Shown one piece after another: positions 38,419 to 50,143 of a stretch of DNA of 64,000 bases. Under the pieces are notes generated by a model. It had not been told where the DNA came from, ran no database searches, and worked only from the letters and a program-made list of their open reading frames with translations. Source of the DNA: Salinicola acroporae (GTDB lineage Bacteria > Pseudomonadota > Gammaproteobacteria > Pseudomonadales > Halomonadaceae); assembly GCF_003206615.1 (NCBI RefSeq), contig NZ_PZJW01000002.1, positions 481,803-545,802 of the forward strand, given 5' to 3'. The stretch's first letter is position 1, and each line of letters opens with the position of its first letter. Made by a program: the position numbers and the translations under genes.

Positions 38419-38531
38419 CCGCTGACGTTTCGGCTGTCGACAACTGGCGGGAGCTAGCAGGCACGCGGAACGAGGTAACGTATCGGCCGATACGCGCCAG
38501 GCTTTAGAGGCAGCAGCGGCGGCGTTCCGGC

Positions 38532-44968: not shown

Positions 44969-45448
44969 ATGTCCGACATCGATACCAATGCCATCGGCCT
45001 GTATACGTCCAGCGCCGAGCAGCTCGCCGAAAAGCTCAACACGCTGCTCGCCAACTACCAGGTGTTCTACATGAACACCCGCGGCTACCACTGGAACGTC
45101 AAGGGCGAGCAGTTCTTCGAGCTCCACGCCAAGTTCGAGGAGATCTATACCGACCTGCTGACCAAGGTCGACGAGGTCGCCGAACGTATCCTGACCCTGG
45201 GCTACCAGCCGCTGCACGCCTATAGCGACTACGCCAAGGTATCGCAGATTCAGGAAGACAAGCAGGTCGCCGACGGCAAGCAGTGCGTACAGGGTCTGGT
45301 GAAGGGATTTCAGGTCCTGATCGAGCTGCAGCGCGAGTTGCTCTCCCAGGCCAGCGACGCCGACGACGAGGGCACCGCCTCCCTGGCCAGCGACTACATC
45401 CGCGAGCAGGAAAAGACCGTGTGGATGCTCAACGCCTACCTCGGCTGA
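44969..45448 (+). CDS. dps: Dps-family DNA-binding ferritin
   Basis: A 159-residue dodecameric mini-ferritin that oxidises and stores iron and protects DNA. The inter-subunit ferroxidase residues have exact Dps spacing: His41, His53, Glu57, Asp68 and Glu72 (GYHWNVKG, FELHAKFEEIY, KVDEVAERI). The N-terminal tail is short and not Lys-rich, so direct DNA binding may be weak. The ATG at 44969 has AGGAGAG upstream. An OxyR-like site precedes it and a strong terminator follows, so it is a single-gene unit. Confidence 0.95.
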   Translation: MSDIDTNAIGLYTSSAEQLAEKLNTLLANYQVFYMNTRGYHWNVKGEQFFELHAKFEEIYTDLLTKVDEVAERILTLGYQPLHAYSDYAKVSQIQEDKQVADGKQCVQGLVKGFQVLIELQRELLSQASDADDEGTASLASDYIREQEKTVWMLNAYLG

Positions 45449-45480
45449 AGCGCTCACGCTAACCGCCGCTGCCAATGTCG

Positions 45481-45510
45481 ATGCCGCCCCGAGGGGCGGC
45501 ATCGTCTTTT
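45481..45510 (+). terminator. Rho-independent terminator of dps
   Basis: ATGCCGCCCC and GGGGCGGCAT form a 9-10 bp stem with a tiny loop, followed by CGTCTTTT, 33 bp after the dps stop. Confidence 0.9.
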
Positions 45511-45645
45511 GGGGCACGGGCTATCTCACCGATAGTCGAGATTAATTAAACTTCGACAATCCTCCGGCCGATGTTGTGCGGTACCCACCACGAGCCCTGC
45601 GATCCGGCAGGCTCGCGGCTTACTTCCCGCCCAGCGGAGGCCATC

Positions 45646-47016
45646 ATGCCCCTCGATACGCCCACCGACAGCTTCGACGCACTCGCCGCCCCGCCGATGG
45701 AGGCGCTGTGGCAGGCGGTCAATCGCTCCCAGGCGGTGATCGAGTTCGATCTCGACGGCCATGTGCTCGATGCCAACGCATGCTTCCTCGACGTCATGGG
45801 CTACCACCGCGACGAGGTGGTAGGTCAGCACCACCGCCTGTTCTGCGACGAGCGCTACGCTCAGAGCCGCGCCTATCAGGAGTTCTGGAAGCGCCTGGGG
45901 CGCGGCGAGTTCGTCAGCGGCGAGTTCCATCGCGTCACCCGCCAGGGCGAGGATATCTGGCTGCAGGCGACCTACAACCCGGTGCTCGACGCCGAGGGCA
46001 GGCCCTATAAGGTGATCAAGCTGGCCTCGGACATCACCCTGCAAAAGCGCGCCGTCGCCGAGTACGAAGGCAAGGTCAAGGCGATGGATCGCGCCCAGGC
46101 GGTGATCGAATTCGATCTCAAGGGCAACATCCTCGCCGCCAACCAGAACTTCCTCGATACCCTGGGCTATCACGCCGACGAGATCGTGGGTCAGCATCAC
46201 CGCCTGTTCTGCGAACCCGACCATGTGGTCAGCCGCGAGTACCGCGACTTCTGGCTGGCGCTGAGCCGCGGCGAGCTATTCGATGGCCGCTTCATGCGTC
46301 TGGGCAAGCATGGCCGCCGGGTCTGGATCCAGGCCACCTACAATCCGATCTTCGATGCCGACGGCAAGCCCTACAAGGTGATCAAGTTCGCCACCGATAT
46401 CACCGCCGAGGTCGAGCTGGAGGAGCATATCCAGGCCCAGACCGAGGCCATGAGCCGGTCGATCCACGCGCTCAACGCCTCTATCGCTTCGATCGCCGAG
46501 AATACCCAGCTGACCCGCTCACTGGCCCGCGAGACCCAGCAGGAAGCCGGCCGTGGCACCCAGTCGCTGAACGACTCGCGCGAGGCGATGGCGGCGATCC
46601 AGAAGTCTTCCGAGGATATCGATGCGATCGTCAAGGTGATCGGCGAGATCGCCTCGCAGACCAACTTGCTGGCGTTCAACGCCGCGATCGAGGCAGCCCG
46701 CGCCGGCGAGCACGGGCTGGGTTTCTCGGTGGTCGCCGACGAGGTGCGCAAGCTGGCCGAGAAGTCCGCCGACGCCACGCGCCAGATCAACCGCCTGCTG
46801 GGCGAGTCGCTCAAGCGCATCGACAGCGGCAACATGGTAACCCAGCGCGCGACCGACTCGTTCGCACGTATCGTCGAGGGCGTGGCCCAGACCACCGACT
46901 CGATCGAGGAGATCGCCACCACCGCCAGCGCCCAGCTCGAGACCGCCAACCGGGTCGATAGCGCGATCCGTGAACTGGCCCGGGCAACCCGTGGCGAGGA
47001 GCGGGCGAGATCATGA
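45646..47016 (+). CDS. Soluble tandem-PAS methyl-accepting receptor, BdlA-like
   Basis: A 456-residue cytoplasmic chemoreceptor without membrane helices. Two PAS domains (about 30-135 and 150-258) carry the near-identical repeats VGQHHRLFC and LQATYNP / IQATYNP. A short MCP signalling domain follows (about 280-456) with the hairpin tip [24 protein letters not shown] and [20 protein letters not shown]. Domain order and PAS motifs match P. aeruginosa BdlA, which drives biofilm dispersion in response to nutrient and cyclic-di-GMP cues. The ATG at 45646 has GGAGG upstream. Its end overlaps the triple-CheW gene by 4 bp. Confidence 0.88.
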
Positions 47017-48575
47017 GCGCGCGCGTCTTCGGCATCCTGCGCGTCGGTGCCGGCGATGTCGCGCTCGATGCCCACGATCTGCAAGAGGTGGTGCGCCTGG
47101 AGAAACTGCCACCGCCGCGGCCGCGGGCGCCGGCCTGGTCGCGGGGCACGCTGTCGCTGCGCGGCCAGCCGCTGCCGCTGGTCGATCTGGCAGGGCTGCT
47201 GCAGCTCGACCATGCCCCCCAGGCAGCGCCCACTTTCGATATCCATGACGCCGTCCATGTCGACGAGCCCCAGAGCAAGGCTCAGGCCAGCTTCGTCGCC
47301 GTGGTGGCGCATCGCGGCGCGCGTTTCGGGCTGTGTGTGACCCAGATCGTCGATGTGATCGAGGTGCTGCCCAACCAGCGCCATGCGGTGAGCCACGGCG
47401 ACGGCAGCACGCTGGCGCTGACCCCGGCGCTGATCGACCACCCGAGCCTGGTCCACCCGGCTTACCTGCTCGACCTGGATGCACTGTTCGCGCTGAAGGA
47501 GATGGTTGCGGTGACACCCTCACCGGAACGGACCGAGCGCCCATCCTTCGACACCTCGGCGCCGCCGACGCTGACCAGTGACGCCACGCCGACGCGGCTC
47601 ACTGCCCGACGCTGGCTGATCGTGGAGAGTGGCGGCCAGGCGCTGGCGCTGGATACCGCGATCGTCGGCGAGGTCGCCAACTGCCCCGAGATCGAACCGC
47701 CGCCGATCGAACTCGACGCCTATCTCGGCAACGTCACGCTGCGCGGCGCGCGGCTGCCGCTGTTCGCCCCCGGCGAGTTGATCGGGCGTGCCACGCAGCG
47801 CGTACAGCCCAGCTACATGGTGGTGCTCGATGGCCCCGAGGGGCGTCTGGCACTGGCCCTGGAGCACGTCGCCGCGCTCAGCGCCGACGGCACCCTGTCA
47901 CCGGCCGGCCCGGGCCAGGCGGCGGCGGTGGCCGGGCTGGTCGTCGGGCCCTCGGGGCGCGATGCGCTGGCGCTAGATCACCGGGTGTTGCTGTCGGCGC
48001 TCAATCTGAGCGCACTGTCACGCCTGCATGCGCGGCTCGATGGCAAGCGAGCCGGCAACTCAGCCGCCGAACACCAACCCCGGCGGCGCTTCGCGCTGGT
48101 GCGCTTCACCTGTGCGGGCGACTACACCACCCTGCTCGACCAGCTCGACGCGGTCGATGCCGCCCCCACCGACTATCTCGCCAGCGGCGGCGACCCGCGC
48201 TTCGTCGGCGTGTGGCGCCGTCACGGGCGCAGCGTGGCCCTGGTCGATCTGCGCCGCCTGCTGGGCCGCGACACGTCGCGCCCACCTCAGCACGTGCTGA
48301 TCGCCGACAGCGGCCAGGGCCTGATCGGCTTTCTCGCCGATGCGGTGCAGCGCATCGATTACGTCGAGGCGGCCGAAGAGAGCCTGGTGGTGCGCTGGCG
48401 GGGTGACATCGATCCCGCGGCCCCGGCGATCGAACGCGCCAAGCGGCTGGTGGCGCTCGGCGTCGGCCCCGACCATCAGGTGATGGCGCTGCTCTGCCTG
48501 CAGGGCCTGGCGATCGACTTGGCGACGAGCAGCGCGACGCTGCCGAACGCCGACGCGACCCCCGAACCCGCCTAG
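47013..48575 (+). CDS. Triple CheW-domain coupling protein
   Basis: A 520-residue protein made of three consecutive CheW-like modules (about 5-165, 195-345 and 365-505), separated by Pro/Thr-rich and Arg-rich linkers. Each has the CheW core pattern: strand, then [30 protein letters not shown] and [15 protein letters not shown] in turn. CheW couples receptors to CheA. Overlap by ATGA with the BdlA-like receptor gene argues that the pair works together. No CheA, CheY or CheR is in the window, so partners must be encoded elsewhere. Its TAG stop shares CTAG with the convergent rmuC stop. Confidence 0.85.
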
Positions 48576-50143
48576 CCCGGTCTGCCCGGGTCCGGGCGGC
48601 CTTGCGCCGCGGGCACGTCATTGTCCGCGCCGCCAACGGCGTCCACCCCGTCTTCGCCACGCTCGCTCTCGCCCCTCTCGTTTTCACCGTCATCACCCAC
48701 GCGACTCGCGTCGGCGCCGCGCGGCGTTCGATCGAGTGCCGTCTCGTCGGCGTCCGCCTCCCGGGTCAGGTGCTCGGGCAGCGCTCGCTTCATGCGCACG
48801 CCGAGCTTCTCCAGCGCCAGCGCCTGGCCGACCAGACTACCCTGGCCAGTGGCGAGCCGTCCCATGGCCTGATCGTAGCTGCCACGGGCACGGCCCAGGT
48901 GGCGTCCGACATCCTCGAGACTCGAGACGAAGCCTTGGAACTTGTCGAGCAGCTTGCCGGCGCGCTCGGCGATATGACGCGCGTTCTCGTTCTGACGCTC
49001 CAGATTCCACAGGCTCGCCACGGTGCGCAGGCTGGCCAGCAGCGTGGTCGGCGTGACCACCACGATGTCGCGCGAGAAGGCGTCCTGGAACAGGGTGTCG
49101 TCGAACTGGAAGGCGACCGCGAAGGCCGGCTCGATGGGCATGAACAGAAACACGAAATCCGGCGAGCGCAGCCCCGGCAGGCGCGGATAGTCGCGCCCCG
49201 CCAGGCCGTCGATATGCGCGCGGATCGCCTGCACGTGGGCGCGCAGCGCCTGCTCGCGCTCGGCATCGTCCTCGGCATTGACGTAGCGCACGTAAGCGTT
49301 GAGCGAGACCTTGGCATCGACGATCAGATGCTTGTCGTCGGGCAGGTAGATCACCGCGTCGGGGCGCTGACGGCCCTGTTCGCCCTCGATCGAGACCTCG
49401 CGGCGGTACTCGATGTCGCGGCGCAGCCCGGAGCGTTCGAGCACCGACTCCAGCATCATCTCGCCCCAGTTGCCCTGCATCTTCTTGTCGCCCTTGAGCG
49501 CCCGGGTCAGGTTGGCCGCTTCTTCGGTGATCTGACGATTGAGGGTGGCGAGCTGGTCGATCTGCACCTTGAGCGTGGTGCGCTCGCGCACCTCTTGGCC
49601 ATGGATCTCTTCGAGACGCTGGCGAAAGCCGCTGACCTGCTCGCGGAAAGGCTTGAGCAGCGCTTCGAGGCTGTCGCGGCTCTGGGCGCTGTAGGCGCGC
49701 TGGCGCTCGTCGAAAATGCGTCCGGCGAGGGATTCGAACTCGTGCCCCATCCGCGTCTTCGCCTGCTCCAGCAACTGGAGCTGTTCCGCGTGCTGGTTCT
49801 GCTGCTGCTCGTACCGGGTCTCGAGCCGCCCATACTGCTCGCGCAGCGTCGCCAGGCGCTCGTTGAGGGCCTCGAGTTGCTGCTCGCGGGCACCAAGCTG
49901 CTGCTGCAGTTGCCCCTGCCGTTCGCGCAGATCGTCCTGCTGGGCATCGCTCTGGGCCAGTTCCTGCTCAAGGCGCCGGCACTGCGTCTCGCTGGTCTGG
50001 AGCCGCACCTGGAGGCTGTCGCGCTCGCCCCTCCAGCGCCGGCGCTGCCACACCAGGACGCCGACTAGGATCGTCACCAGGCCACCCAGCAGGACGAGCC
50101 CACCGGCAGACGGCAACAGCCATTCCCCCACTCCGCCATTCAT
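48572..50143 (-). CDS. rmuC: DNA recombination protein RmuC
   Basis: RmuC limits recombination at inverted repeats and is thought to be a nuclease-fold protein. One N-terminal membrane helix (about 12-32) is followed by a long coiled coil (about 40-160, Gln/Glu/Leu-rich) and the conserved core: KGDKKMQGNWGEMMLESVLERSGL, RPDAVIYLPDDKHLIVDAKVSLNAY and VFLFMPIEPAF. A C-terminal Asp/Glu/Gly-rich tail of about 60 residues is extra. The ATG at 50143 has AGAGGAAG upstream. Stop overlaps the triple-CheW gene end. Confidence 0.95.
   Translation of the reverse strand: MNGGVGEWLLPSAGGLVLLGGLVTILVGVLVWQRRRWRGERDSLQVRLQTSETQCRRLEQELAQSDAQQDDLRERQGQLQQQLGAREQQLEALNERLATLREQYGRLETRYEQQQNQHAEQLQLLEQAKTRMGHEFESLAGRIFDERQRAYSAQSRDSLEALLKPFREQVSGFRQRLEEIHGQEVRERTTLKVQIDQLATLNRQITEEAANLTRALKGDKKMQGNWGEMMLESVLERSGLRRDIEYRREVSIEGEQGRQRPDAVIYLPDDKHLIVDAKVSLNAYVRYVNAEDDAEREQALRAHVQAIRAHIDGLAGRDYPRLPGLRSPDFVFLFMPIEPAFAVAFQFDDTLFQDAFSRDIVVVTPTTLLASLRTVASLWNLERQNENARHIAERAGKLLDKFQGFVSSLEDVGRHLGRARGSYDQAMGRLATGQGSLVGQALALEKLGVRMKRALPEHLTREADADETALDRTPRGADASRVGDDGENERGESERGEDGVDAVGGADNDVPAAQGRPDPGRPG

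Follow-up and report, generated by a model that had tools for sequence, protein, structure and literature searches.

The window, a stretch of 64,000 nucleotides from the salt-loving Salinicola acroporae (family Halomonadaceae), carries a pair of overlapping genes that encode a soluble PAS-MCP receptor and a protein whose single chain holds three CheW modules, behind what is probably a promoter of the flagellar regulon. We read the pair as an optional, FliA-controlled cytoplasmic sensor that comes with its own multivalent coupling protein and would feed the sole flagellar CheA of the cell, a reading to which we give about an even chance of being right. Triple-CheW proteins (CheW3) are known as such; CheW3 together with PASn-MCP receptors and a FliA-type motif, and without DosM or CheA, appears to be new, as we found no description of this combination in the parts of the literature available to us. 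The features of the locus, numbered from the first letter of the window, are as follows.

45479..45504, plus strand: terminator-like hairpin after the upstream dps-like gene (11-pair stem, then TCTTTT)
45547..45574, plus strand: sigma-28 (FliA)-type motif TAAA-N16-GCCGATGT ahead of the receptor start (strict pattern match)
45646..47016, plus strand: receptor gene, PAS-PAS-MCP, 456 aa, with a short hairpin (open reading frame and Pfam)
45727..46047, plus strand: receptor PAS 1, residues 28-134 (PF08448 stretch)
46132..46389, plus strand: receptor PAS 2, residues 163-248 (PF08447 stretch)
46522..46983, plus strand: receptor MCP signalling hairpin, residues 293-446 (PF00015, E 6.9e-43)
47013..47016, plus strand: stop/start overlap ATGA of the receptor and triple-CheW genes (sequence)
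47013..48575, plus strand: triple-CheW gene, 520 aa (three PF01584 stretches, whole-protein E 3.8e-33)
47037..47492, plus strand: CheW module 1 (PF01584 53.5 bits; 99.5% profile match)
47613..47996, plus strand: CheW module 2 (PF01584 38.2 bits; 98.2% profile match)
48195..48368, plus strand: Pfam-matched part of CheW module 3, diverged (PF01584 30.0 bits, profile positions 36-95; 97.1% profile match)
48572..48575, both strands: convergent overlap CTAG, in which the stop codons of the triple-CheW gene and of the rmuC-like gene (minus strand) overlap (sequence)

The two genes share the ATGA reported in an earlier note on this DNA, and they may be translationally coupled. In the 30 family loci the receptor and triple-CheW genes overlap by 4 nt in 16 cases and by 8 nt in one, or are separated by 1-2 nt in nine and by 28 nt in four, counts that depend on the start codons chosen for the genes. 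The terminator-like hairpin further upstream is a consensus match only (1 found against 0.6 expected in shuffles). The names Dps, RmuC and glycerate kinase for neighbouring genes, as well as FliD and MotA below, were assigned by eye and are our presumption.

Searches with the triple-CheW protein gave matches in 32 of 275 genomes of the family at E<=1e-3, 30 of them near full length; the two remaining matches were other things, namely an F9 cluster (genome G226) and, in G247, a short, weak hit within a long frame that contains a stop. Since the receptor gene lies directly upstream on the same strand in all 30 near-full-length loci, chance pairing is excluded, and the survey that the earlier note had proposed thus found the pair together, not separate, in close relatives. 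The five named relatives of the triple-CheW protein (84-88% identical) come from three Salinicola, one Modicisalibacter and one gammaproteobacterium. Within the genus the pair is an optional slot: it is present in 11 of 18 genomes, where it adjoins the rmuC-like gene every time and has the dps-like gene on its other flank in 10 (in the eleventh, G179, this place is taken by a glycerate-kinase-like gene without a dps match). In the seven genomes that lack the pair, rmuC is followed by dps in six and by the glycerate-kinase-like gene in one. Spread of the pair on plasmids was considered and rejected, as the triple-CheW protein had no match in the plasmid collection at E 1e-10.

All three CheW modules scored above the PF01584 cut-off of the genome search (23.5 bits), module 3 being the weakest, and three such matches were found within the frame in all 30 family carriers. 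Module profiles built from the 30 family sequences were compared with a small CheW alignment, composed of two single CheW proteins and nine third modules of F9 proteins; they gave the values listed above, and a PAS control gave a probability of 0.1-0.2% in the same profile comparison. These profiles are the basis for the fold, and the presence of three CheW modules in the 520-residue chain, as reported in the earlier note, is confirmed. In this protein Pfam detected nothing but CheW domains, and no receiver domain. The protein resembles canonical CheW and CheV in its CheW domain and in the LRG arginine of modules 1 and 2, and differs from them in having three modules, no receiver domain found and a diverged module 3. 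Vass and others (2022) reportedly surveyed CheW domains.

Residues at positions of E. coli CheW were compared in 13 family proteins; two of these positions, E38 and R62 (the LRG arginine), have roles in CheW. The arginine is present in 13/13 first, 12/13 second and 6/13 third modules, and the E38 glutamate in 13/13, 12/13 and 5/13, respectively. D107, reported as a receptor contact (PMC6954272), is D in module 1 of 10/13 proteins, and the residues listed for modules 2 and 3 do not include it. Binding to receptor residue E402 is reported for R40 (PMC6954272), which none of the modules of the 13 proteins shows in its residue list; F9 modules are without it too. The interface-2 residues R117 and F122 are mostly lost, with R117 kept in three of 13 second modules. 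In module 3, just downstream of the Pfam-matched part, W462 within RWRGD is invariant (30/30) and aligns, at a place where the alignment has an insertion, with the E. coli CheW residue F122, which belongs to interface 2 (PMC5181776). Module 3 (48195-48575) also has a conserved C-terminal CLQxLA-like stretch that is absent from the CheW sequences aligned.

The receptor contains PAS and MCPsignal as its sole Pfam domains, none of them of a membrane type, which supports a soluble protein with the layout of BdlA and McpS. We know of no CheW partner gene for either of these; the pair differs from both in that a CheW3 gene follows the receptor and that PAS copies vary. BdlA (PA1423) and McpS (PA1930) of Pseudomonas aeruginosa are described as proteins in which an unusually short MCP domain comes after a pair of PAS domains (PMC8694187), and our comparison is with that description. 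A search of the PDB with the receptor named no BdlA entry at E 1e-10. The likeness to BdlA claimed in the earlier note holds for the tandem-PAS and short-MCP layout, and the number of PAS domains is not constant: the 30 family loci, window included, have two copies in eight, three in seven, four in 14 and five in one, and six occur outside the family. Because the hairpin tip and the triple CheW are retained while the PAS number varies, 'BdlA-like' fits the short form alone. Judged from these sequences, sensor domains are gained or lost in tandem, and rapidly, between close relatives. Across the window and loci L081-L117, two or three PAS domains stand beside triple-CheW proteins 85-89% identical to that of the window, and four to six are found elsewhere. 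The receptor tip retains EVR and has L in place of the arginine of the GRG present in three other receptors of the host genome, the tip positions following Tsr numbering.

The PAS tandem (residues 34-221) matches the solved PAS tandem 3ewk, which we take to be the flavin sensor MmoS, with E 1.2e-20 in the PDB search. The receptor PAS domains also match the NifL model, below its curated cut-off, and the heme (DosP) and LOV models match too. Flavin is predicted for the PAS domains of BdlA and McpS (PMC8694187). From the similarity to NifL and 3ewk and from this prediction, flavin or redox sensing is perhaps the function of the stack; with NifL below the cut-off and the heme and LOV models matching as well, flavin is not established.

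The motif upstream of the receptor gene is the only plus-strand match of the strict pattern in the 64-kb window. The only other strict match in the window lies on the minus strand at 38506, ahead of a 787-aa frame without a chemotaxis match. For scoring across relatives we used the FliA consensus TAAA-N15-GCCGATAA and a stretch from 300 nt before to 150 nt after the first possible receptor start, with a threshold of 9.5 of 12. Thirty-two loci were scored, 29 from the family plus G445, G325 and G464 from outside it, and the window was scored apart (9.5). The threshold was reached in 24/32 receptor loci, against 17/1264 equal stretches elsewhere in those loci, and in 0/32 cases on the reverse strand of the same receptor stretches; the loci are related and not independent, and among them the spacers vary and the two boxes stay. 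The eight loci below 9.5 are both F53 loci (L120 and L121, from G325 and G464) and six family loci, L113 included. The strict pattern occurred within the stretch in 20/32 loci, with one other hit in 634,062 strand-bases, counts that are not blind because the pattern was written after the first list had been viewed. That other hit, in L113, falls 4 nt beyond the preset stretch, inside an overlong receptor frame. The -10 box reads GTCGATAT in 10/32 loci; in the five che regions of relatives, a looser search found this box once, inside a cheA-like frame.

As a control, the motif was sought ahead of chemotaxis genes. In the host genome the strict motif stands ahead of cheA, cheY and a receptor gene, likewise in G177, and in G125 it stands ahead of a FliD-like gene. 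Locus L165 (G130 region) has two strict hits, neither ahead of a che gene, and no hit occurs in the che regions of G122 and G153. In relatives a looser pattern was found ahead of genes resembling those for FliD, MotA, CheR and MCPs, and in the host ahead of further MCP genes, with a few hits ahead of no such gene, and the 40 kb flanking the window contain neither pattern. No sigma-70 promoter was found in 45400-48750. The pair is probably transcribed with the flagellar genes from a FliA promoter, and the motif points to flagellar chemotaxis rather than to biofilm dispersion, the role suggested in the earlier note, for which we found no support beyond the shared layout.

No CheA, CheB, CheR or CheY gene lies beside the pair in the window. 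The host genome (4.37 Mb) has its sole CheA, that of the flagellar cluster, and its sole single CheW on another contig than the pair, in agreement with the original remark that no CheA is nearby. The coupling of one receptor to several kinases, also proposed there, is rejected for the host, which has a single CheA. One CheA-type and one single CheW match were found in 18/18 genomes of the genus, and the 11 carriers among them add the three modules and nothing else that matches the CheW domain. The same holds for 27/30 family carriers, the host included, with exactly one CheA-type match and exactly one match to single CheW. Two of the exceptions are G119, with a second CheA in an F9 cluster, and G143, with extra CheW-domain matches; the third, G170, carries the pair and has no CheA and no single CheW detected outside the triple protein. 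In the host the pair must use the single CheA of the cell or work without a kinase.

In a kinase-free function of the BdlA type, the receptor would target c-di-GMP enzymes during biofilm dispersion, and CheW3 would be a scaffold for this with no CheA involved. For BdlA itself, an activating cleavage between the PAS domains, action on DipA and RbdA, and a role in dispersion are described (PMC9769550). The common layout and the carrier without CheA speak for this alternative, and the FliA-type motif and the receptor tip sequence, with its EVR retained, speak against it. In addition, FlhA also went undetected in G170, a genome rated 100% complete, and 14 MCP matches besides the pair receptor remain; as only about 9-10 kb separate cheA from flhA in the host genome, a single assembly gap could take out both and is likely. 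We set G170 aside as proof of a kinase-free function, a gap being at least as likely, and consider the alternative very unlikely. Elsewhere in the host genome, off the contig of the flagellar cluster, there is a second FHIPEP (FlhA/type III export) match (G000:C27:331395-333386).

Alternatively, the pair could belong to the main polar membrane array, where CheW3 would replace single CheW in the CheW rings and the soluble receptor would tune or disturb the array in the manner of McpS. The same kind of promoter and the presence of only one CheA are consistent with this. So is McpS, a protein of like layout that appears in a published list as a modulator of chemotaxis and of receptor clustering (PMC9864684), and whose PAS domains group with those of BdlA (PMC8694187). 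The dimensions of the receptor argue the other way. Beyond the tip its hairpin continues for 102 residues, where three other receptors of the same genome have 166-179 and the receptors of four related loci 117-127 (lengths in residues). Receptors of Halomonas titanicae belong to the 36H class, with one 40H exception (PMC5907407), so that the shorter hairpin of the pair receptor stands apart, and in E. coli receptors altered by a single heptad do not co-pack (PMC7534058). With up to five PAS copies in the family and six outside it, and with interface-2 residues mostly not kept, we regard membership of the polar array as decidedly unlikely.

The closest known relative in architecture is the CheW3 of F9 systems. 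The earlier note had taken a three-CheW chain to be foreign to chemotaxis operons; such chains are described, as unique to F9 systems (PMC9321776), where they occur with the double-tipped receptor DosM (PMC9321776, PMC7534058). The example of Vibrio cholerae cluster I (VC1402, with DosM VC1403) resembles the protein of the pair in its length of about 500 aa, its three modules and the position of its gene beside that of a soluble receptor. With an F9-type query, such proteins were found in 8/398 genomes of the phylum (E 1e-40), one of them cut by a contig end. The pair differs from F9 loci in its receptor, which has a single tip and PAS domains in place of the double-tip DosM, in the lack of CheA, CheB, CheR and CheY beside it, and in the FliA-type motif, for which the pair loci were scanned. 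In V. cholerae, the base plates of cytoplasmic arrays consist of CheW3 and CheA of the F9 system, these arrays can form without CheA, and two-PAS 24H receptors are suggested as F9 partners (PMC7534058).

The pair might be a reduced F9 system. Its CheW3 would then derive from that of an F9 cluster in which DosM, CheA and CheY have been lost, and its PAS receptor would once have been the sensory receptor of that cytoplasmic array. CheW3 is the hallmark of F9, the V. cholerae two-PAS receptors fit this origin, and in F9-type loci too the receptor gene (DosM) directly precedes that of CheW3. Partial F9 sets without CheA are described in 8/2781 species (PMC9321776), so the missing F9-type CheA, found neither in the host cluster nor elsewhere in the host genome, does not by itself exclude F9 membership. 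Among these, Nitratiruptor and Nautilia have dosM, cheW3 and cheBR without cheA (PMC9321776); they resemble our host in having CheW3 without a cognate CheA in a one-CheA genome, with signalling through the CheA of another system proposed there, and differ in having kept DosM and cheBR, neither of which accompanies the pair. No DosM-type receptor was found in the host genome, where each of the 15 MCP matches lies in a frame of its own, and the receptor beside the triple CheW has one MCP domain by Pfam.

Descent was examined with a tree of 82 CheW modules from 13 of the 30 family proteins, G445, three F53 proteins and nine F9 CheW3, together with two single CheW proteins and two CheA P5 domains (the F9-type loci L134, L136 and L141, where frame choice or contig ends hid some of the neighbours, were left out). 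Modules 1, 2 and 3 of the non-F9 proteins formed clades of their own with support of 100, 96 and 95, and all 51 non-F9 modules formed one clade apart from the F9 modules (UFBoot 78). Forcing orthology of modules 1-1, 2-2 and 3-3 with F9 cost 19.9 lnL units (p-AU 0.031); the constrained tree reached the same likelihood from both seeds in full searches, two of the four runs having stopped at the time limit. This weakly rejects a triplication shared with F9 and favours, not decisively, an independent one; gene conversion between modules would give a similar tree. The pair looks like a line separate from F9. G119 contains an F9 cluster (DosM, CheW3, CheR, CheY and CheA; L142, G119:C7:79000-98500) and the pair as different proteins. 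Together with the absence of DosM from the host, these results make a reduced F9 system unlikely in our view.

In a wider draw from the class, 10/369 genomes gave matches at E 1e-20; two of these belong to the family and eight lie outside it. Of the eight, G445 has the pair, its receptor with five PAS domains. G325 and G464 have receptor, CheR, CheD and CheW3 in a row, with six and four PAS domains, respectively, and no CheA within the 20 kb read; CheD is Pfam-confirmed in G464 and was read by eye in G325. The position of CheR and CheD between receptor and CheW3 in these two loci indicates that the set belongs to receptor signalling. L120 and L121 thus keep adaptation enzymes beside a kinase-less set. 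The locus of G568 stops at a contig edge, and four further matches (families f118 and f149) are of the F9 type, with a DosM-like double-tip receptor beside CheW3; Pfam confirmed the double tip for L122, one of these, and for the remaining three it was read by eye.

The shared promoter type, the single CheA and the optional slot together suggest a plug-in sensor of flagellar chemotaxis, and the short hairpin and variable PAS stack suggest an assembly away from the membrane. In the reading we prefer, the two genes make up an optional chemosensory module that belongs to the flagellar regulon, and their sigma-28 (FliA) promoter would produce receptor and CheW3 together with the flagellar genes. 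The soluble receptor would sense the cell interior through its stacked PAS domains, perhaps by flavin or redox state, and the overlapping gene would supply a dedicated coupling protein of three linked CheW modules. Multivalent binding of these modules to receptor tips would join the tips in an assembly, which is most likely cytoplasmic given the short receptor hairpin; the triple CheW may thus nucleate a cytoplasmic array, one of the roles suggested in the earlier note. The assembly would then capture the one flagellar CheA of the cell and bias swimming. We infer each of these steps, from FliA transcription through module-receptor contacts, cytoplasmic assembly and CheA capture to the behavioural output; what the sequences show is how the genes are built, that the pair is conserved, that there is one CheA, and that the promoter motif and the optional slot exist. 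The LRG arginine retained in modules 1 and 2 speaks for this reading. The missing R40, the mostly lost interface-2 residues, the seven of 13 third modules without the LRG arginine, the eight loci below the motif threshold, the -10 box GTCGATAT and the G170 carrier with no CheA detected speak against it.

More tentatively, with a chance that we place well below even, the pair may represent a second, F9-independent triple CheW tied to variable-PAS receptors, forming a lattice in the cytoplasm without DosM, which would use the flagellar CheA or no kinase at all. If this were true, linking three CheW modules would be a general way to build arrays off the membrane. The presence of CheW3 without DosM in single-CheA genomes, and the contrast with empty sites in the same genus, make the role of linked CheW testable in a simple host, as strains with and without the two genes allow receptor clustering, CheA sharing and swimming to be compared.
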